Below, one piece after another: positions 1-12,949 of a DNA stretch of 64,000 bases (its first letter is position 1; every line of letters starts with the position of its first letter). The notes beneath the pieces were generated by a model, which had not been told where the DNA came from, did no database searches, and saw only the letters and a list, made by a program, of their open reading frames with translations. Location: the NCBI GenBank assembly GCA_040877935.1, contig JBBDNB010000008.1, forward strand, positions 67,348 through 131,347, written 5' to 3'. The position numbers and the translations under genes are program-made. The DNA comes from Chitinophagales bacterium. GTDB lineage: Bacteria; Bacteroidota; Bacteroidia; Chitinophagales; CAIOSU01.

Positions 1-108
1 ACCTATGTTATTGCTTCATTCCTATGTTTCCTCAATACCTATGTTGTTGCTTCATTCCTATGTTTCCTCAATACCTATGTTGTTGCTTCATTCCTATGTT
101 TTCTCAAT
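1..108. repeat. Three tandem copies of a 36-bp repeat
   Basis: Positions 1-36, 37-72 and 73-108 are near-identical 36-bp units, differing at single bases. Each unit is built from two half-units that both contain CCTATGTT. A degenerate fourth start (TTCTATGTGGTT) follows at 109. The array may continue left of the window. It lies just downstream of the stop of the last gene of the PhyH operon. No spacers separate the units, so this is a simple tandem repeat and not a CRISPR array. Confidence 0.9.
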
Positions 109-142
109 TTCTATGTGGTTAAACATACTATGCTGTAATTGA

Positions 143-1099
143 TTACTCAACAAACAAACTTTTAAGCTTGCTGAATAATCCTTTGTTGTTGCTATCAACT
201 ATAACAGGCTCCTCTGTTTGAGCTTTTTCTTTTGGCTTCGCTCCTTCTATCAGTTCCCTTGAATTTGTTCTCTCATATCGCTCTGCTATATAATCAAAAT
301 CAACCTTAGGGAAATTATAATCAACCAAACCCAGTGATTTACCTACTTTGGGGCGATCTTGGATATTCTCGCCAAACTGCTCGAAATTGGTCATAAAATC
401 ATCGTCTTGCGCAAAAGCCTCCAATTTTGCATCACCGTGCTCTTCTTTGTTCCAGTAATAAGTCCTGAATTCAGTGTCTTTATGGGTGAAGTAGGTATTG
501 GTCACTATTCTTAACTTATCGGAATAATTGGGCGGGGAATAGTGCATTATGCTTTGGTCGAAAAAAACAGCTTCACCAGCCTTCAGTAACAATGGCTGCA
601 TGTAATCCAGTAAATCTTCTTCTTTAACAGGACTGAAAAACTCTGGTATTGATGACCCTCTGTAAGTAGGGAAAAGCCTGTGGCTGCCAGGTAACACGAA
701 AATAGCCCCATTTTTAATACTTAAATCGCAAAGCGGCACCCAGATATTAATCCCCGTAAAACGCGACTCATCTACAAGACTCATATCCTGATGTACGCAC
801 ATGCCACTCTCCGGGCCGGGATTTTTGACAATAAAGGAGCCGCAAACGACTTTTATATCTTTGCAATATTTTTCAATACTTCTTTCACATATTCTTTTGA
901 TTTCCTTATCGGCAGTCTGTCTATATGCTTTGTCTTTTGAAAAAGTACTCGGAAAAAATCCCTTTTCATCTTCGGGATGCAGACGATGGTAGAGTTCGGT
1001 CAATTCTTTGATTTCCCCTTCATTAAAAAAAGGCAGGGCGATAAATCCGTTTTTCTCAAATTCTTCCTGGTGTCTTTCATCTTGAAACACCGTTTTCAT
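143..1099 (-). CDS. Phytanoyl-CoA dioxygenase (PhyH) family protein
   Basis: This looks like a 2-oxoglutarate/Fe(II)-dependent oxygenase of the PhyH family, about 318 residues, with no signal peptide, so presumably cytoplasmic. The iron site is readable: HQD at H103/D105, the distal His in MHYSPPN (H186), and a candidate 2-oxoglutarate-binding Arg in KLRI (R197). The start is chosen because its N-terminus (MKTVFQDE...) aligns with the other PhyH domains of this operon. An ATG at 1120 and a TTG at 1165 are alternatives; the TTG would overlap the gene before it. It is the last gene of the operon. The substrate is unknown; PhyH enzymes hydroxylate diverse small molecules, and the neighbouring permease suggests a glycan or lipid-linked product. 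The C-terminus is Lys-rich. Confidence 0.85.
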   Translation of the reverse strand: MKTVFQDERHQEEFEKNGFIALPFFNEGEIKELTELYHRLHPEDEKGFFPSTFSKDKAYRQTADKEIKRICERSIEKYCKDIKVVCGSFIVKNPGPESGMCVHQDMSLVDESRFTGINIWVPLCDLSIKNGAIFVLPGSHRLFPTYRGSSIPEFFSPVKEEDLLDYMQPLLLKAGEAVFFDQSIMHYSPPNYSDKLRIVTNTYFTHKDTEFRTYYWNKEEHGDAKLEAFAQDDDFMTNFEQFGENIQDRPKVGKSLGLVDYNFPKVDFDYIAERYERTNSRELIEGAKPKEKAQTEEPVIVDSNNKGLFSKLKSLFVE

Positions 1100-1130
1100 T
1101 TTATCGGGGAACTGGAACATAATTCTTTTT

Positions 1131-3050
1131 TTAGCTGACCAATTTCTTTTTGATTTCCCTTGCAATATTCAGGGGTGTATATTTTTGGAAAAAACTTCTG
1201 TCATCTATCCATACATATTCCTCTTGCTCTTTTGGCTTTTCCTCATGTTCAACTGTTTTTTCTTCCTCTTCTTTTTGCTCTTGTTGTTTTTCCTGCTGAC
1301 TAAATAATTTTGCCAATTTCTCAGTCATGGGCACATTGTATTCATTTCCAGCTGATTTTATCATTTCAACCAATTCATCACTTGTAAACTGAGGGCAATC
1401 GTATGGCACTTCCTTGGGCTCACCATAGCCTTCAATCAACTCACCATTTTCATACATTTTTGCCAGCCTTGCATTTTCATATTTAAGAAAAAAATCTTCA
1501 TCAACTTTGTATTTAAGTAAAGTGTCATTTTTACCATCAGGTTTTAAATAGTAATGAACCAATTGCGCATCTTTTTGGGTCACTCCTACTCCCGCTGCCA
1601 ACCTTATTCCATCTGTAGTATTGGGCGGTGAGGCATGAAAAGTACGGTTGTCAAACATCAAGACTTCTCCGGCTTTCATTTCTATGGTTTTCAAATAAGG
1701 GAATATACTGAACATATGATCGCTCAGCGGCACAGGCGTTTGAGGTGATGGTGATGGCCTGTTGTACTCCATAAAACGGTGGCTGCCTTTGATTACGCCC
1801 ATACAGCCATTATCGAGCGTGGTATCCACCAATGCTACCCAGCAGGTAATGGAACAATAACCATCTTCCTCTTTATCTACAAAGCTCCAATCCTGATGGG
1901 CAGGAACTACGCCTTTGGGGTTGGACTCTTTGATCACAAAACTGGAAACATAGGGTTTAAAATCCTTCAAATGGTTTTCAAGTGCCGGTACTACAGCACC
2001 CCATATCTTTTCCCTAATGCTTCGGCACATATCCTTGTCCTTTTGATCCATGCTCACATGAAAACCGAAGCCATTTTCATCTTTCAAATTGAGGTTTTCA
2101 TAATAACGCTTTAAATCATCCACCTCATTTTGGTCAATCAGCGGGAATACCGCATAGCCTTCATTTTCAAAAAACTGCTGTTTTTCAACATCTTTAAATA
2201 AAGGCTTCATTTTAAAATTTTCTGCTCTTTCCTCTTGCATAAACGCTATTTTTTTTGTTCGATAAGCCTCTAATGTAAGCGGCTTTCTATCATATTTAAA
2301 TGTATCAATCAATTTGCCATTCTTGGGCCGCTCTCCAATTTGAGTATTGTACTCCTGAAAAAAATTGGTACCCACTGCATATTGCTCCACTTTTCCATCT
2401 TCCGCCCCGTGATAAAAACGCAAATCAGCATCGGCATGAATCAAACCATAAGTTACGGCTAATCTTGGACTTTCGCTAAAATTTGGAGGTGAGGCATGTA
2501 ACAAAGCCTGGTTAAAGATAAATGCTTCTCCTGCCTTCATCGGCAAAAGCTTTAGGTCTTTTCTTATCACATCCCTAATATTGTTAAACGGGTCGGTAAG
2601 GGATGGTGAGCGCAAGGCATCTGAGAATTTATGGCTGCCATCAATTACTTGTATGGCACCATTCTTTTCACCTACATCCTGAAGTGGAATCCAAATGGTT
2701 ACGGAAGCAAACCTATTCTCATCAACTACCGTCCAATCCTGATGTATGGGCATTTCGCTTTCTGGTCCTGGTTGTTTGTTCAAAAAGCAACTGCCCAACT
2801 TTTTAACTTCGGTAAACTTGCTTTCTACTTTATTTCCAAGTAGCGATTCTACCTTTTGATTGATTTTTTCTTTGTGCTTTGAATCTTCATTAAAACTTGA
2901 AGAATAAAAACCATTGGGGATTTCGGGGTGTGTTTCATGAAAAAAATCTTTTAATTCTGCTACCTCTTTCTCTGAAAGAAAAGGCACTACCACATAGCCG
3001 TACCTTTCAAAATCTGCCTGTAAGTTTTTGTTTTTGAATAATTGCTGCAT
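1131..3050 (-). CDS. Tandem two-domain PhyH-family dioxygenase
   Basis: About 639 residues holding two complete PhyH domains. Domain 1 (roughly 1-275) has HQD at H103/D105 and the distal His in LLHASPPN. Domain 2 (roughly 280-520) begins MKPLFKD and has AHQDW and FHASPPN. Both therefore keep the 2-His-1-carboxylate iron ligands. The tail is rich in Glu, Lys and Gln and is probably a flexible or coiled linker. The start at 3050 is supported by a strong Shine-Dalgarno (GGAGGT, 6 nt before ATG) and by alignment with its paralogues; an upstream ATG at 3074 overlaps the permease stop by 8 nt. Two fused dioxygenase domains suggest two oxidations on one product or an internal pseudo-dimer; this is inference. 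Confidence 0.85.
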   Translation of the reverse strand: MQQLFKNKNLQADFERYGYVVVPFLSEKEVAELKDFFHETHPEIPNGFYSSSFNEDSKHKEKINQKVESLLGNKVESKFTEVKKLGSCFLNKQPGPESEMPIHQDWTVVDENRFASVTIWIPLQDVGEKNGAIQVIDGSHKFSDALRSPSLTDPFNNIRDVIRKDLKLLPMKAGEAFIFNQALLHASPPNFSESPRLAVTYGLIHADADLRFYHGAEDGKVEQYAVGTNFFQEYNTQIGERPKNGKLIDTFKYDRKPLTLEAYRTKKIAFMQEERAENFKMKPLFKDVEKQQFFENEGYAVFPLIDQNEVDDLKRYYENLNLKDENGFGFHVSMDQKDKDMCRSIREKIWGAVVPALENHLKDFKPYVSSFVIKESNPKGVVPAHQDWSFVDKEEDGYCSITCWVALVDTTLDNGCMGVIKGSHRFMEYNRPSPSPQTPVPLSDHMFSIFPYLKTIEMKAGEVLMFDNRTFHASPPNTTDGIRLAAGVGVTQKDAQLVHYYLKPDGKNDTLLKYKVDEDFFLKYENARLAKMYENGELIEGYGEPKEVPYDCPQFTSDELVEMIKSAGNEYNVPMTEKLAKLFSQQEKQQEQKEEEEKTVEHEEKPKEQEEYVWIDDRSFFQKYTPLNIAREIKKKLVS

Positions 3051-3066
3051 TTTCTGACCTCCTGTA

Positions 3067-3900
3067 TCAGGCATAATCTACCATTTTATCTTCGTTTCTA
3101 ATCAACATAAATGTGGCTAAAAAGGCACCTATTACTACAATGGCAATTGCAGGCCAGTATTGCCACACCGGAAAAGTTTCTCCCAGCAATGCAAAGCGAT
3201 AACCTTTGATAATTCCAGCCATTGGATTAATGTACACAAAAAACTCATAACCCTTTGGGATTATAGTAGTCGGATAAAAGACGGGGCTTACCCATATGGC
3301 TATACCAATTATTGCAGGTACGATCTGGTTCAGATCGCGAAAACGAATATTCAACACATTCATCCACAGCGCTACAAACAAACCACAGAAAATATTCAAC
3401 AGTATGAAAAATGGCAAACTCATTATCTTAATACTCAAAATTTCCCCTTCTAAAATCATCATTATAAAAAGTATGGCCAGGGAAACTAAAAAATCGACAC
3501 CGGTAACAAGTACGGTAGACAATGGCAATATCAATTTCGGAAAGTACATTTTCTTTAAAAGATCCTGTTTTTCAATCATAATATTGGAACCAATATTTGC
3601 CAACTGGGCAAAATAATTCCAGGCTATCATGCCTGTAAAAGCAAAAATATAATAAGGCTGCTCGGTGGGTACTTTTAAGAAAAAATTGAAAATAACAGTG
3701 AAAATGGCAACCGTAATCAAAGGCCTGAGTACAGACCACAACAAACCAAAATAGGTTTGTGCATAGGCTGATTTTATCTCCTGTTGGGCAAATACACCTA
3801 TCATTGAATAATATTTCAGCAATTCATGCCAATACTCGCTAATAGTAGGTGCCTGAGCAGTTATTACTTTAACATGTTTAGTACCTTTGTTGTGATACAT
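3067..3900 (-). CDS. ABC-2 type polysaccharide export permease (Wzm/TagG-like)
   Basis: A 277-residue inner-membrane protein with about six hydrophobic segments and the family layout of O-antigen/teichoic-acid exporters: an N-terminal stretch on sheet-like QEIKSAYAQTYFGLLWSVLRP, a central FRDLNQIVP loop, and WVSPVFYPTTIIP followed by the NPM motif. Such permeases work with an ABC ATPase (Wzt/TagH) to move undecaprenyl-linked glycans across the inner membrane. No ATPase gene is present in the window; it may lie left of position 1. The gene begins directly after the stop of the upstream PhyH gene and overlaps or abuts the next one, so it is co-transcribed and probably translationally coupled with them. 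The family call is secure; the cargo is not known. Confidence 0.9.
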   Translation of the reverse strand: MYHNKGTKHVKVITAQAPTISEYWHELLKYYSMIGVFAQQEIKSAYAQTYFGLLWSVLRPLITVAIFTVIFNFFLKVPTEQPYYIFAFTGMIAWNYFAQLANIGSNIMIEKQDLLKKMYFPKLILPLSTVLVTGVDFLVSLAILFIMMILEGEILSIKIMSLPFFILLNIFCGLFVALWMNVLNIRFRDLNQIVPAIIGIAIWVSPVFYPTTIIPKGYEFFVYINPMAGIIKGYRFALLGETFPVWQYWPAIAIVVIGAFLATFMLIRNEDKMVDYA

Positions 3901-4818
3901 CTATGAAAAAACGGCCTTTAACTTTTGAAGAAAATTACGCTCTTCAGGTAATTCATCAATTTTTCTTTGTTTCATTCTCCCAACGAATTCTTCTTCGTCA
4001 ATCATTCTATTCTGAATATCGAATTCCTTTACAAACTTAACATTGCCGGGTTTGGCCCAGGGATTGAATTCCATGTAAAAATCCTTATCAACCTCCAGCA
4101 TTTTAATTGTTTGAGGCCTGGATGATTCCATGTGATAATGCACAGAAGGGAAATCAGAAGGTATGAGTATCAGCTGAATGGCCAGGCGCAAGCCGGGTGT
4201 TTTGTTCACCGCAGAATAATGCACTATACTATCGTCAAGTACTACACAGTCACCGGCTTTGGTTTCCAATGGAACCAAATGGTTTTCAATGATCTCTTTT
4301 TTGATACCGTCTAACTCCCAGGGTACCATTGGCCCCCTGAACTCTCCAAATCTTTTATGACTACCAGGCACAACCTGAAGCGTTCCATTTTCAACTGTGG
4401 AATCTACCAAAGGACACCAAATGGATACGGATGTACATTTTCGTTCTTCAACAAAAGCCCAATTCTGGTGCAAAGGCACTTCGCCTGCTTCGGGCTTCTT
4501 GCGGATATAATTGGCTATTATTGGTTTGTAATCTGCCAGCACACGCTCTACATGCGGTTGGAAGTATTTTGTGATTATATCAAAAACCTTTCGTTTGTAT
4601 TGAGGGTTTTTGTCAATAAATGTAAAATCATAGGTTATGGCATTTCCGCCTTCCACACCTGTTTCATCTGCTGTGATTTGCCCCCCACTGGCCGGAAGTG
4701 TATCGAAAAAATTTTGTTTTAATTCTTCTACTTCTTCTTGGGATATGAAAGGAATGCTTACATACCCATCCTTTTGAAAACGAGCTTCCAACTCATCATT
4801 CCTTAATATTCTTCTCAT
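3901..4818 (-). CDS. PhyH-family protein with altered iron motif (HQN)
   Basis: A 305-residue PhyH-like protein and the first gene of the operon. The fold landmarks are present: WCPLVDSTVENGTLQVVPGS, the distal His in IVHYS (H200), and the Arg in GLRLA (R211). The expected HxD metal motif reads H117-Q118-N119, with AAT at 4462-4464, whereas the other three PhyH domains of this operon have HQD. Loss of the carboxylate ligand could make the protein inactive, regulatory or chemically different; some Fe/2OG halogenases also lack this carboxylate, but they carry Ala or Gly there. The start ATG at 4818 aligns with the paralogues (MRRILRNDE). The stop abuts the permease start with no gap. Confidence 0.85.
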   Translation of the reverse strand: MRRILRNDELEARFQKDGYVSIPFISQEEVEELKQNFFDTLPASGGQITADETGVEGGNAITYDFTFIDKNPQYKRKVFDIITKYFQPHVERVLADYKPIIANYIRKKPEAGEVPLHQNWAFVEERKCTSVSIWCPLVDSTVENGTLQVVPGSHKRFGEFRGPMVPWELDGIKKEIIENHLVPLETKAGDCVVLDDSIVHYSAVNKTPGLRLAIQLILIPSDFPSVHYHMESSRPQTIKMLEVDKDFYMEFNPWAKPGNVKFVKEFDIQNRMIDEEEFVGRMKQRKIDELPEERNFLQKLKAVFS

Positions 4819-5283: not shown

Positions 5284-6564
5284 CTAAAACGCAATAGGCA
5301 AGGCGCGTTTGACATTTGCCAGTTTTTCCAGTTCACTAATGGCATAATCCTGGTTTGAAGCTGCAAGTACCGCTTTCTGCATTTTAGCTACATTTTCCTT
5401 AAATCGTTTATTGTTTAAAATTTCATCCACCGCTTTCTGAATTCTTCCAGTTTTTTCATTTTTACCCAACTGTATTCCACAAGCGTGATAAGCCACTTTT
5501 GCAGCATTATCGTTTTGGTCGCGTCCCATAGGCATACAAATCAGTGGCGCCCCATGAGCAAGGCTACGCATTACCGTGCCATGACCAGCATGGGTGATCA
5601 TCAAATCTGCCATTGGCAATACCTGTGAATGTGGTGCTGATTCAACGACTACCACATTTTCCGATACCTGAAATTGCCCGGGCTGCATTACAGGCCCTAA
5701 GGTAACCAATGCCCTTACATCCCTTTCGGCAAGTGCATCAATACAGCGTTGAATAACAGCAGCCTGATTCTGAAAAGTAGATGAAAGACTGACCACAACT
5801 AAAGGTCGCTTGTCATTTTCCGGCCAGGGATTTTCCCAGGGTTCTACCCAATCCGGATCGTCAAGAATGGGACCGGTATATCGCACATTGCTTGGCGCAG
5901 GTTTGAGTGGAAAATCAAATTTCTCAGCCGTTTGGATAATTCTTAGATATGCATTTAAAATAAGGTCTGCCAGATTGTTCAATTCACCCAACCCATAAGA
6001 CTTTCTCAATTGATTAATCTGTGGCAAATACTTGTTCAATGTTTTATGAAAAACCTTAGCCAGAATTTTATCCCGCAGTTTTCCGAAAAATGAAGTACCG
6101 GGTAATAATCCCATTACACCGGGAGGTCTGTTGTCCCCGGGAAAGTATTCCGGCATGTGAAAGACCACTACAGAAGGCACTTTTAAATACTCCCCTGCAA
6201 TAAGTGCAGTTGGCATCATACAGTCCACCATTAAAACATCTGCAGGATTGTTTTTCAATGCTTCAATGGTTTCTGCTATCACAATGGATGCAGGGCCGAA
6301 AACAATATTATCAAAAGCAGGTTGCGAGAGTGGCGAAGCATTCCAATCTTTACAGATATCCTCTTTTCTGTCGGTTCGGGTAAAATGCTTTTTAAAACAA
6401 ATAAAATTGAAACCATTGGCTTTAACTACTGATTCAAGACAGGGTTCTGTTAAAAAACTCACTTTGTGACCGTGCTTTGCCAATCGCTTAGCCAGACCAA
6501 ACACAGGAGGAATATTCCCACCGGCATCGACAGTAACAAACAAGTAATGCTTCAAATTTTTCAT
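5284..6564 (-). CDS. GT1-family glycosyltransferase (UGT/MGT-like)
   Basis: 426 residues with the two-Rossmann GT-B layout of UDP-glycosyl/macrolide glycosyltransferases. The N-terminal acceptor half begins FVTVDAGGNIPPVFGLAKRL, and the C-terminal nucleotide-sugar half carries the signature ITHAGHGTVMRSLAHGAP followed by MGRDQNDNA. It should transfer a sugar from an NDP donor to a small lipophilic or natural-product acceptor in the cytoplasm; the acceptor is not known. It sits 11 bp downstream of a TetR-type regulator gene and is very likely in the same operon, which suggests induction by a small molecule that the enzyme may modify. The N-terminal His of the family is not obvious at its usual place, so activity is inferred from the C-terminal signature. 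Confidence 0.9.
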   Translation of the reverse strand: MKNLKHYLFVTVDAGGNIPPVFGLAKRLAKHGHKVSFLTEPCLESVVKANGFNFICFKKHFTRTDRKEDICKDWNASPLSQPAFDNIVFGPASIVIAETIEALKNNPADVLMVDCMMPTALIAGEYLKVPSVVVFHMPEYFPGDNRPPGVMGLLPGTSFFGKLRDKILAKVFHKTLNKYLPQINQLRKSYGLGELNNLADLILNAYLRIIQTAEKFDFPLKPAPSNVRYTGPILDDPDWVEPWENPWPENDKRPLVVVSLSSTFQNQAAVIQRCIDALAERDVRALVTLGPVMQPGQFQVSENVVVVESAPHSQVLPMADLMITHAGHGTVMRSLAHGAPLICMPMGRDQNDNAAKVAYHACGIQLGKNEKTGRIQKAVDEILNNKRFKENVAKMQKAVLAASNQDYAISELEKLANVKRALPIAF

Positions 6565-6575
6565 GGTAAATTGTT

Positions 6576-7172
6576 TTAAGGTTTATTTTTGATCAGTCCT
6601 TCCACCATAGTCCATAATACTGCGTATGTTTCTTTTTTGCTCTTTCCCAGGTCTTTTCTGAGTAGTTTCCACAGATAAAAGTCCGTGGCGGCAAAAAAAG
6701 CGTGCAATCGAGTTTCGTATTCCTTTGTGTTCTTTTTCGGTAAATGTTCCTCAAAAACTTTTGCACACCATTCCCTGTGAAATGCCCTGCCTTTGATTAG
6801 TGCTTTTTTAGCTACTGCCAATTCTTCTTCAATAGCCAGTGTACGTATTGCCGCCTCTCCTATTTCTTCATAATTATCAAGCAAAACCTGTAAAGCCTGC
6901 TCTACCCCCCCTTCAATAGCTACATTTCTTTTATGACTGATCTTCCCAATATCATTGTCAATGCAATATTCTATCAAACCTTCTTTTGAGCCGTATTTTC
7001 TAAGAATTGTGCGAACAGTCACTCCTGCATTCTCTGCCACCATATCCAGGGTGATTTCATGCATCGAATATTGCTTCCAAAGTGAAAAAGTGGCATCCAA
7101 TATTTTTTGCTCATTGCGGTTCACCTGCTCTGCCCGCTTTGTCATCTTGTAATTCCTTTTCACTTGCTTCAT
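6576..7172 (-). CDS. TetR/AcrR-family transcriptional regulator
   Basis: 198 residues. The N-terminal helix-turn-helix lies at about residues 18-65 (ILDATFSLWKQYSMHEITLDMVAENAGVTVRTILRKYGSKEGLI, quoted in part by its ends). It is followed by an all-helical ligand-binding domain with no recognised ligand. It precedes the glycosyltransferase gene by 11 bp. Upstream lies a textbook Bacteroidota promoter crossed by perfect inverted repeats, so autoregulation as a repressor is likely. The start ATG at 7172 is 6-7 residues into a Lys/Arg-rich leader; a slightly later ATG (MTKRAEQ) is a possible alternative. Confidence 0.88.
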   Translation of the reverse strand: MKQVKRNYKMTKRAEQVNRNEQKILDATFSLWKQYSMHEITLDMVAENAGVTVRTILRKYGSKEGLIEYCIDNDIGKISHKRNVAIEGGVEQALQVLLDNYEEIGEAAIRTLAIEEELAVAKKALIKGRAFHREWCAKVFEEHLPKKNTKEYETRLHAFFAATDFYLWKLLRKDLGKSKKETYAVLWTMVEGLIKNKP

Positions 7173-10609: not shown

Positions 10610-12949
10610 TTGCAATCATTTTTAAAGCTTTTTATTAAAATCAGCCTTTTGTTTTTCTACAAGAATATTTACGTACACGGGTTCTGTCTTTTTCTGCTAA
10701 TTTTTATGTGCAATATTTTTGAGCTAAGTGCCCAGGAAAAAGGCACAGTTCGGGGGATAGTCTATAACAAGGAAGATGGTGAGCCGGTCATCTTTACCAA
10801 CGTAATATTAAAAGGCACTACATACGGCTCCTCAACCAATATCAATGGCCTTTATTCAATAACAGATGTACCGGTGGGCAATTACACATTGTTTTGCACA
10901 GGTATTGGCTACGATACAGCTACAGTTCAAATTCGAATTGAACCAGATAAGATCACATCGCAAAACCTCTACCTGGGTGAGCAGGATGTGAAAATCAAAG
11001 AAGTGAGTATTTCTGCCAAAAGACAGGAAGCGGTAAGCGAAGTCCAGGTTTCTACCATCCAAATTGAGCCAAAACTGATCAAGCAAATACCATCGGTAGG
11101 TGGCGAACCTGATATCTCCCAATTCCTACAAGTTTTGCCGGGCGTAGTTTTTACGGGTGATCAGGGTGGGCAATTGTACATTCGTGGCGGCTCTCCTATT
11201 CAAACCAAAGTACTGCTCGATGGGGTAACCATTTACAACCCATTCCATTCCATTGGTTTTTTCTCCGTTTTTGAAACAGATATCATCAGGAGTGTAGATG
11301 TAGTTACCGGAGGCTTTAATGCCGAACAGGGCGGCAGAATTTCAGCATTGATCGATATTAAAACCAAAGATGGCAACAAAAAGGAACATGATGGTAAAAT
11401 TTCACTAAGTCCTTTTATGGCCAAGGCTGTTTTTGAAGGGCCGCTTAAAAGGCAAAAAGAAAACTCAGGTGCCAGCATCACTTATTTGCTAACAGGCAAG
11501 TACTCCATTTTAGATCGCACAAGCGAAGCCTTGTATCCTTATGTAAATGAAGGAGATGGTATTCCCTTTCAGTTCAGGGATTTTTACGGGAAATTGTCCT
11601 TCAACTTTGACGGTGGCTCAAGGCTCTCTCTTTTTGGTTTTAATTTCCACGATGTAGCAGATTTTAAAGACGTAGCCCGCTATGAGTGGAATTCCCTGGG
11701 TTTCGGAACCAATTTCTCGGTAGTTCCTGGAAAGTCTTCAACCATTATTGATGGGTTCATAGCCTATTCCAATTATGATGTAGAGCTGCGTGAAGCAGGA
11801 CAGCAACCGCGCAGCAGCTCTATAGGTGGTTTTAATATCGGCATGAATTTCACTTATTTTCTTAGAGCAGGTGAAGTAAAATACGGTTTGGCCATTAATG
11901 GATTTTCTACAGATTATCGCTTTTTCAATAGCATAGGAACTATCGTTGAGCAAAATCAAAATACTACAGAACTCGGAGCTTTTGTACAATTCAAAAAAAT
12001 CGTGGGAAAATTTGTACTGGAACCGGGAGTGAGGTTTGACTACTATGCATCGCTGGGCACTATTTCACCGGAACCACGCCTCGGCATCAAATACAATGCA
12101 CTCGATAAATTCAGGATAAAACTGGCCGGAGGCGTTTATGCACAAAACTTTATCAGCACCAAAGCCGACCGGGATGTTGTGAATTTATTCAATGGTTTCC
12201 TATCTGCACCCGATGAAAGATTGACAGGAATAAATGGCGTACAATCCAATTCCAAGCTTCAAAGAGCTTACCATGCAATTCTTGGTTTTGAGGTTGATGT
12301 CACCCGTTTTATTGAATTTACTTTTGAGCCTTATTACAAACGCTTTGGTCAGTTGATCAATATCAACCGCAACAAATTATTCCCCAATGATCCGGACTTT
12401 ATGATTGAAACTGGCAATGCCTATGGCACAGATTTTCTTGTGAAATACGACTACAAAAACCTGTTTATCTGGGCAGCCTATTCACTGAGCTGGGTAGATA
12501 GAAATGACGGCAACCAAACTTATCCCCCGCATTTCGACAGAAGACACAACCTCAATTTAACCACTACCTATACTTTTGGCAAAGGGAAAAATTACGAAGT
12601 AAGTGCGCGATGGAATCTCGGTTCAGGTTTTCCATTTACCCGAACACAGGCCTTTTATGAAGATGTAAATTTCAATGATGGAATTAATACCAATTATGCA
12701 GGGCAAAATGGAGACCTCGGAATACTGTATGAAGAGGAGCTCAATGCAGGCAGATTGCCTTATTACCATAGACTGGATTTTTCACTGAAAGCAACCTATG
12801 CATTATCGGTAAATACAACTTTGGATATTGTAGCAAGTGTAACAAATGCTTACAACCGGAACAATATTTTTTACTTCGACAGAGTTCGCTATGAGAGAAT
12901 AGATCAACTTCCAGTTTTACCAAGTTTAGGGGTGTCATTATCTTTTTAA
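10610..12949 (+). CDS. TonB-dependent receptor with carboxypeptidase-like N-domain
   Basis: About 779 residues. After a hydrophobic export signal ending near LSAQ comes a CarboxypepD-reg-like domain (GTVRGIVYNKEDGEPVIFTNVILKG), then a plug domain (QFLQVLPGV, YIRGGSPIQTKVLLDGV, GGFNAEQGGRIS). The rest is a 22-strand-type beta barrel ending in Phe (GVSLSF). Such outer-membrane receptors import bulky ligands with TonB energy; the ligand is unknown. The start is uncertain: TTG at 10610 precedes the whole signal peptide, while the first in-frame ATG (10706) would leave too little of it. A TAATTTTG -7-like box at 10525-10532 lies upstream. The TPR gene follows after 10 bp. Confidence 0.9.
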   Translation: MQSFLKLFIKISLLFFYKNIYVHGFCLFLLIFMCNIFELSAQEKGTVRGIVYNKEDGEPVIFTNVILKGTTYGSSTNINGLYSITDVPVGNYTLFCTGIGYDTATVQIRIEPDKITSQNLYLGEQDVKIKEVSISAKRQEAVSEVQVSTIQIEPKLIKQIPSVGGEPDISQFLQVLPGVVFTGDQGGQLYIRGGSPIQTKVLLDGVTIYNPFHSIGFFSVFETDIIRSVDVVTGGFNAEQGGRISALIDIKTKDGNKKEHDGKISLSPFMAKAVFEGPLKRQKENSGASITYLLTGKYSILDRTSEALYPYVNEGDGIPFQFRDFYGKLSFNFDGGSRLSLFGFNFHDVADFKDVARYEWNSLGFGTNFSVVPGKSSTIIDGFIAYSNYDVELREAGQQPRSSSIGGFNIGMNFTYFLRAGEVKYGLAINGFSTDYRFFNSIGTIVEQNQNTTELGAFVQFKKIVGKFVLEPGVRFDYYASLGTISPEPRLGIKYNALDKFRIKLAGGVYAQNFISTKADRDVVNLFNGFLSAPDERLTGINGVQSNSKLQRAYHAILGFEVDVTRFIEFTFEPYYKRFGQLININRNKLFPNDPDFMIETGNAYGTDFLVKYDYKNLFIWAAYSLSWVDRNDGNQTYPPHFDRRHNLNLTTTYTFGKGKNYEVSARWNLGSGFPFTRTQAFYEDVNFNDGINTNYAGQNGDLGILYEEELNAGRLPYYHRLDFSLKATYALSVNTTLDIVASVTNAYNRNNIFYFDRVRYERIDQLPVLPSLGVSLSF

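Follow-up and report, generated by a model that had tools for sequence, protein, structure and literature searches.

A stretch of 64,000 nucleotides from a Chitinophagales bacterium (referred to throughout as the window, and located on contig C8 of a 4.03-Mb assembly of 63 contigs) carries, close to its left edge, PhyH-type oxygenase genes packed around a single gene for a Wzm/TagG-type ABC-2 permease. This arrangement raised the question of what a set of Fe(II)/2-oxoglutarate (2OG) enzymes might do beside a glycan exporter, and whether the association extends to other genomes. The features of the operon, listed in the order of transcription (PhyH, permease, double PhyH, PhyH) and followed by the adjoining repeat, were as follows.

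3901..4818, minus strand: HxN PhyH-family protein of 305 aa, first gene of the operon (Pfam PF05721, E 5e-24), with a short helical C-terminal tail
3067..3900, minus strand: Wzm/TagG-type ABC-2 permease of 277 aa (ABC2_membrane, E 9e-12)
1131..3074, minus strand: double PhyH protein of 647 aa with two PhyH stretches (E 7e-51), both having HxD...H...R, and a C-terminal amphipathic tail
143..1120, minus strand: single PhyH protein (E 8e-22) having HxD...H...R, a flexible linker and an amphipathic tail at the C-terminus
1..120, no strand assigned: 36-bp tandem repeat in 3.3 copies, running on leftward beyond the window edge

Gene content of the operon and of the region to its left

All four PhyH domains of the window scored above the curated cut-off of the PF05721 profile (79 to 174 bits per protein versus a cut-off of 22). 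The HxD...H iron triad and the 2OG-binding Arg were complete in three of these domains, while the protein encoded at 3901-4818 has an Asn in place of the Asp and retains both His residues and the Arg. The original prediction had counted the four domains alike, and they are not equivalent. Its description of three genes with four PhyH domains and one Wzm/TagG-like permease on a single strand was accurate; the zero or overlapping junctions that it reported were present at two positions (0 bp at 3901/3900 and an 8-bp overlap at 3067-3074) but not before the last gene. The start of that gene, conserved in 14 orthologues, was the ATG at 1120 and not the TTG at 1165, and hence a 10-bp gap precedes it.

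The permease matched the NCBIfam Wzm/RfbD and KpsM models below their cut-offs, and its relatives in the PDB were TarG (E 4e-18) and an O-antigen Wzm permease (E 6e-16). Two window proteins gave weak matches (26 to 36 bits versus a cut-off of 150) to TIGR04324, the sporadic carbohydrate cluster 2OG-Fe(II) oxygenases; members of this family are likewise Fe/2OG oxygenases within sugar gene clusters, but the window proteins score far under its cut-off. An AlphaFold2 model of the protein encoded at 143-1120 had a pLDDT of 82.5 and a disordered tail. For every gene of the operon, other genomes had orthologues at the corresponding place in their operons, and these positional orthologues, together with the strong E-values, placed the matches far above chance. 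Chance or an annotation artefact was ruled out as the source of the operon, as the genes, their order and the motif recur in many genomes. Elsewhere in the window (5284-7172), a macrolide-family glycosyltransferase gene and an adjacent TetR regulator resemble a free-standing pair of the resistance type that has nothing to do with the operon.

No ATPase gene accompanies the permease in the operon, and it had been suggested that this gene might lie left of the window. An ABC ATPase of the Wzt/TagH type was found there at L003:14978-16258, 3.9 kb from the window and on the same strand as the operon. This protein matched a galactan Wzt/RfbE model (E 3e-47) and TagH (E 6e-41), both below the cut-offs, and TarH (E 2e-39), and carries approximately 190 extra residues with no match to Wzt_C (PF14524) in Pfam. 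Reading leftward on the operon strand, the order was the 36-bp repeat array, a 137-aa gene, a PhyH gene, a DUF6056 membrane protein gene, a small gene and the ABC ATPase gene. The oxygenase genes in this region were as follows.

L003:18251-19216, operon strand: PhyH, first PhyH gene left of the window
L003:13957-14826, operon strand: PhyH, next gene after the ATPase, leftward
L003:12232-13938, operon strand: double PhyH, left of the ATPase
L003:11307-12197, operon strand: PhyH, left of the ATPase
L003:10396-11250, operon strand: WelO5-like 2OG protein, left of the PhyH gene at 11307-12197

Glycan genes were also present beyond the left edge, a GT2 gene and a gene for an FdtA-like sugar isomerase being located further leftward than the WelO5-like gene. 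Inspection of the WelO5-like protein detected HCE where WelO5 halogenases have HxG, and therefore its motif looks like that of a hydroxylase. There were 14 PhyH matches in the whole genome, ten of them in the cassette region. A compact wzm-wzt-phyH operon was present on contig C39 (L016:12045-14921), where the PhyH gene follows a second wzm-wzt pair after 8 bp.

Two further observations concern this genome. The 36-bp tandem repeats (L003:19810-19961 and window 1-120, partly N-masked) and the 137-aa gene (L003:19262-19675) lie between the window operon and the next same-strand PhyH gene and resemble sequence inserted into the cassette. A second sugar gene region (L018 and L019; C43:172000-211000) contains four PhyH or AspH-type oxygenases, several B12-type radical SAM proteins, a carbamoyltransferase and a methyltransferase (MT)-UbiA pair.

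Linkage of PhyH genes to Wzm in other genomes

Location of PhyH genes beside Wzm-type permeases in other Bacteroidota, as implied by the original prediction, was observed repeatedly and extended even to fusions with the ATPase. Neither of the two outcomes named as refuting the original prediction was thus observed, which supports that prediction in part; its proposal that the oxygenases oxidise the exported glycan or its lipid carrier, or mark the chain end, describes a possible role. In six genomes of the source's own family, the closest permease homologue was followed by PhyH genes, and in G003 to G006, where the contig was long enough, wzt came after three or four of these. The gene order in relatives was wzm, phyH, (MT-)phyH-phyH, phyH, wzt. 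Second, canonical wzm-wzt pairs in five of the same six genomes had no PhyH genes. A scan for Wzm loci with one genome per species yielded 80 loci, 45 of which contained PhyH genes, often three to eight and mostly directly downstream of wzm; because the query set was mostly PhyH linked, this proportion does not apply to Wzm proteins at large. The organism labels of the loci covered Bacteroidota classes and single Verrucomicrobia and Neomarinimicrobiota bins, whose labels may be wrong. In a tree built from 85 Wzm proteins, the presence of PhyH required 9 changes versus 22.7 in shuffles, with 0 of 500 shuffles as low, and in a 22-row clade including the window permease PhyH genes were present in all of the labelled rows (21/21). 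Genes of the GT2, GNAT, WelO5-like and KAS III-like types were enriched near PhyH-linked Wzm, and relatives of the WelO5-like protein occurred at 9 PhyH-linked and 0 unlinked loci.

The paralogous PhyH domains of the window were 25 to 32% identical to each other, while orthologues at the same position in close operons (L046, L048, L051, L076, L088 and L103) were colinear and 48 to 75% identical. Each half of the double protein at 1131-3074 had its own orthologous family, with identities of up to 60% and 75%. As the positional orthologues are far closer than the paralogues, the array is, judged on these identities, a set of distinct conserved genes and not a recent tandem duplication. The suggestion that the paralogues have position-specific roles gained support from these fixed orthologous positions.

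Two proteins combined a PhyH domain with a Wzt. At L042:14147-16090 a single protein consisted of an ABC ATPase, Wzt_C and then PhyH, and at L067:10174-12330 of PhyH, an ABC ATPase and then Wzt_C. Both fusions were in-frame, and a shared assembly error is unlikely because the domain orders are opposite. At the level of sequence, these fusions support a coupling of PhyH to the exporter. A methyltransferase was fused to two PhyH domains at L034:9010-11562 and was encoded by a separate gene before them in L032. Overall, the PhyH cassette is real, conserved and more interesting than first reported, owing to the Wzt fusions and to the HxN family described below.

The HxN member and its iron site

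The protein encoded at 3901-4818 has His117-Gln-Asn119 in place of HxD, and H117, N119, H200 and R211 were conserved in 22 aligned orthologues. Among 220 PhyH domains from Wzm loci, 180 had HxD...H...R and the HxN group comprised 27 complete and two truncated domains, with the distal His kept and the Arg kept where covered. All of the HxN rows (28/28) formed one clade with full support in a FastTree domain tree with long branches elsewhere and with a single change, and Asn was present in all 28 clade members. One HxN domain per operon was observed in 48 of 49 loci, approximately 4 of the 49 being repeats of the same contig, and the exception was a split gene. The HxN gene usually adjoins wzm. 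In an alignment with PHYHD1 and PHYH the Asn fell at the iron-ligand Asp, and the AlphaFold2 model had a complete PhyH fold (pLDDT of 89.6). Identity between HxN orthologues in the nearest operons was 65 to 69%, in line with the values for the HxD paralogues. Decay of the HxN gene was ruled out by the uniform Asn in one clade of 28, by the retention of both His residues and the Arg and by this HxD-like level of identity. The known HxG/HxA halogenase type did not fit the HxN protein either, which has Asn where halogenases have Gly or Ala. Apparent loss of the iron site was observed in the second domain of a protein at L053:1494-3317, a PhyH domain whose four key positions are Q, Q, G and V, in contrast to the HxN family.

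Fe/2OG catalysis without a carboxylate is possible, since AspH and the halogenases achieve it: AspH has two His residues and water at the iron (PMC13168262), and halogenases have Gly or Ala for the iron-ligand Asp, which allows halide to bind (PMC12346261, PMC7170919). The HxN family resembles AspH and the 2OG halogenases SyrB2, WelO5 and BesD in lacking a carboxylate iron ligand but differs from them at the ligand position, where AspH has water and the halogenases have Gly or Ala (PMC13168262, PMC12346261) whereas the HxN family always has Asn. By analogy with these enzymes, the HxN member is probably functional, with a two-histidine iron site without carboxylate; a role as a substrate-binding partner instead of an enzyme is less likely. 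No description of an invariant HxN family was found in a limited literature search. It is possible, although at well under even odds, that the HxN family represents a new natural Fe/2OG class (with a 2-His-1-Asn or a 2-His-only site), fixed as one member of a set of oxygenases that together produce an oxidised glycan (in some lineages a cap) unlike any described polysaccharide, with PhyH acting at the ABC exporter itself, an arrangement to which the Wzt fusions point. The invariant Asn at the iron site offers a natural test of how a metal ligand steers Fe/2OG chemistry.

Proposed role of the cassette and alternative explanations

The nearest solved proteins by sequence and fold included PHYHD1, PHYH, SnoK, SnoN, EvdO2, AviO1, HygX, EvdMO1 and MysH, several of which are sugar acting. 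EvdO2 matched the protein encoded at 143-1120 by sequence (E 4e-7), and EvdO2, AviO1, HygX and EvdMO1 were among the Foldseek matches. The best structural match of the HxN model was SnoK (Z of 18.4 over 223 residues, 3.4 A), with SnoN at a Z of 17.6 and with PHYHD1 and FtmOx1 tied with SnoK (within 1 Z unit). SnoK and SnoN, of nogalamycin biosynthesis, share with the HxN model the PhyH fold and are sugar acting; both are HxD enzymes of polyketide antibiotics. Near structural relatives also act on terpenoids (AndA, PrhA and SptF), amino acids and alkaloids, and as the fold family is broad, with many ties on terpenoid, alkaloid and amino acid enzymes, the fold is a guide to the substrate without settling it. 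The orthosomycin enzymes EvdO1/EvdO2, AviO1, HygX and EvdMO1 resemble the cassette in being PhyH-fold Fe/2OG enzymes with several per cluster. EvdO, AviO1 and HygX have been linked to orthoester formation (PMC8234114), and EvdMO1, a methyltransferase-oxidase fusion according to work cited in PMC10338323, joins a methyltransferase to an oxygenase as do the MT-PhyH-PhyH proteins of relatives. The substrates of the orthosomycin oxygenases are, however, secreted actinomycete antibiotics, and their likeness to the window proteins, at approximately 20% identity, is one of sequence and fold.

From these observations we infer catalysis, substrate, place of action and timing relative to export as follows. 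The most probable reading, to which we assign a probability of about 0.5, is that soluble PhyH enzymes at the inner membrane oxidise specific positions of a sugar or lipid-linked oligosaccharide, and that a cognate Wzm/Wzt usually exports the finished glycan. The cassette would extend from the HxN PhyH, Wzm, PhyH-PhyH and PhyH genes of the window to the PhyH, DUF6056 membrane protein, Wzt and additional PhyH genes to its left. Most likely the PhyH proteins are soluble and use Fe(II) and 2OG, and each would act at its own position of this sugar or oligosaccharide on the cytoplasmic side of the membrane, in a mode likened to that of the orthosomycin oxygenases (EvdO and EvdMO1). These reactions may yield sugars that are hydroxylated or have undergone oxidative cyclisation (orthoester or methylenedioxy type), and oxidation would precede export by the Wzm/Wzt pump. 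The enzymes are probably held at the membrane through short amphipathic tails. A C-terminal amphipathic motif was present in 53% of 156 PhyH proteins, with a mean net charge of +2.6; as only 11% beat shuffles at p<0.05, this is a moderate signal. Tails of this kind would suit enzymes working at the membrane.

The main alternative is that the PhyH core forms a general pathway to a modified sugar or nucleotide sugar in glycan clusters, the ABC transporter being one of several possible users and export being coupled to it neither physically nor mechanistically. The distribution of the HxN core bears on this explanation. An order-level search independent of Wzm gave matches at E 1e-50 in 52 of 396 genomes, HxD paralogues accounting for some of these, while an evenly drawn search of the phylum at a strict threshold gave 1 of 395, the window's own HxN gene alone, and hence the cassette is rare across the phylum. 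Among the best 30 HxN loci, Wzm was located within 1.5 kb in 13 and within 8 kb in three more (16/30), versus approximately 1% expected by position alone (binomial 6e-24, a value overstated since the genomes are related). In the other 14 the core was alone or beside a UbiA-MT pair, and some Wzm-free loci had an HxN-PhyH2 pair or a lone HxN gene surrounded by unrelated genes, as a general sugar pathway would allow. Also in its favour, family f73 had UbiA-MT-linked HxN forms and distant Wzm homologues only, and G448, a 100% complete genome with the HxN core, gave no Wzm match at E 1e-20; G417, G457 and G476 had canonical-like Wzm only, and in these genomes the HxN core adjoins a UbiA-MT pair. 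Strict dependence of the PhyH core on an ABC transporter was ruled out by the Wzm-free HxN loci, and the counts of 16/30 loci with Wzm nearby, distant homologues in f73 and none in G448 indicated that export coupling of the HxN core is common but not obligatory. The two PhyH-Wzt fusions, the zero-gap or overlapping gene junctions and the tight clustering of the PhyH trait on the Wzm tree argue against a pathway without coupling, as does the presence of a strong Wzm homologue elsewhere in most f63 genomes that lack local linkage. We consider this alternative rather unlikely.

Position-specific oxidation, as preferred here, may also be compared with the ABC-dependent O-antigen pathway, in which Wzm/Wzt are accompanied by WbdD-type terminators. 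WbdD caps the chain with methyl or phosphomethyl groups. The cassette shares with this pathway a Wzm permease and Wzt ATPase beside glycan-modifying enzymes, Wzt_C in some members and basic amphipathic C-terminal tails on many modifiers; it differs in that its modifiers are a PhyH oxygenase array, some members of which are fused to a methyltransferase or a Wzt, and in that no kinase or known terminator was identified. These similarities raise the further explanation that the chain is cleared for export by a terminal cap, made in this case by the oxygenases and methyltransferase in the manner of WbdD, with Wzt reading the oxidised cap. Known ABC-dependent systems need a cap that is read by the carbohydrate-binding domain of Wzt (PMC9445017, PMC11231755), and the basic tails on many PhyH proteins recall the C-terminal amphipathic membrane helix of WbdD (PMC11231755). 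Furthermore, a methyltransferase is fused or adjacent in many loci, and both PhyH-Wzt fusions contain Wzt_C. Capping is nevertheless improbable and not favoured, because only 6 of 16 cassette Wzts had a Wzt_C match in Pfam; in addition, four to eight oxygenases exceed the need of one cap, and the HxN core exists without Wzm.

The least probable explanation, an outside chance, is that UbiA, a cyclopropane/UbiE-like methyltransferase and PhyH build an oxidised prenyl or glycolipid that Wzm/Wzt flips, for while MT-UbiA pairs recur beside the HxN core, some near structural relatives (AndA, PrhA and SptF) act on terpenoids and UbiA-family enzymes can charge polyprenyl phosphate (PMC11127046), UbiA was near only 11 of 49 HxN loci, the UbiA matches were far under any NCBIfam cut-off and the neighbourhoods were rich in glycosyltransferases and sugar genes.

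No mention of PhyH oxygenase arrays was found in literature on ABC-dependent glycan export, and no description joining PhyH or phytanoyl-CoA dioxygenase to Wzm, O-antigen, lipopolysaccharide or exopolysaccharide clusters was found in a search that covered few subscription papers. If position-specific oxidation is correct, multi-enzyme oxidation by an Fe/2OG cassette would join the short list of bacterial modifications of ABC-exported glycans, and an oxidised surface sugar would be predicted in many environmental Bacteroidota. The cassette provides a defined gene set for knock-out.

A KAS III-like ketosynthase family (L045:11938-12993) was detected at 9 PhyH-linked Wzm loci and at none of the unlinked loci, which suggests an acyl group on the sugar.
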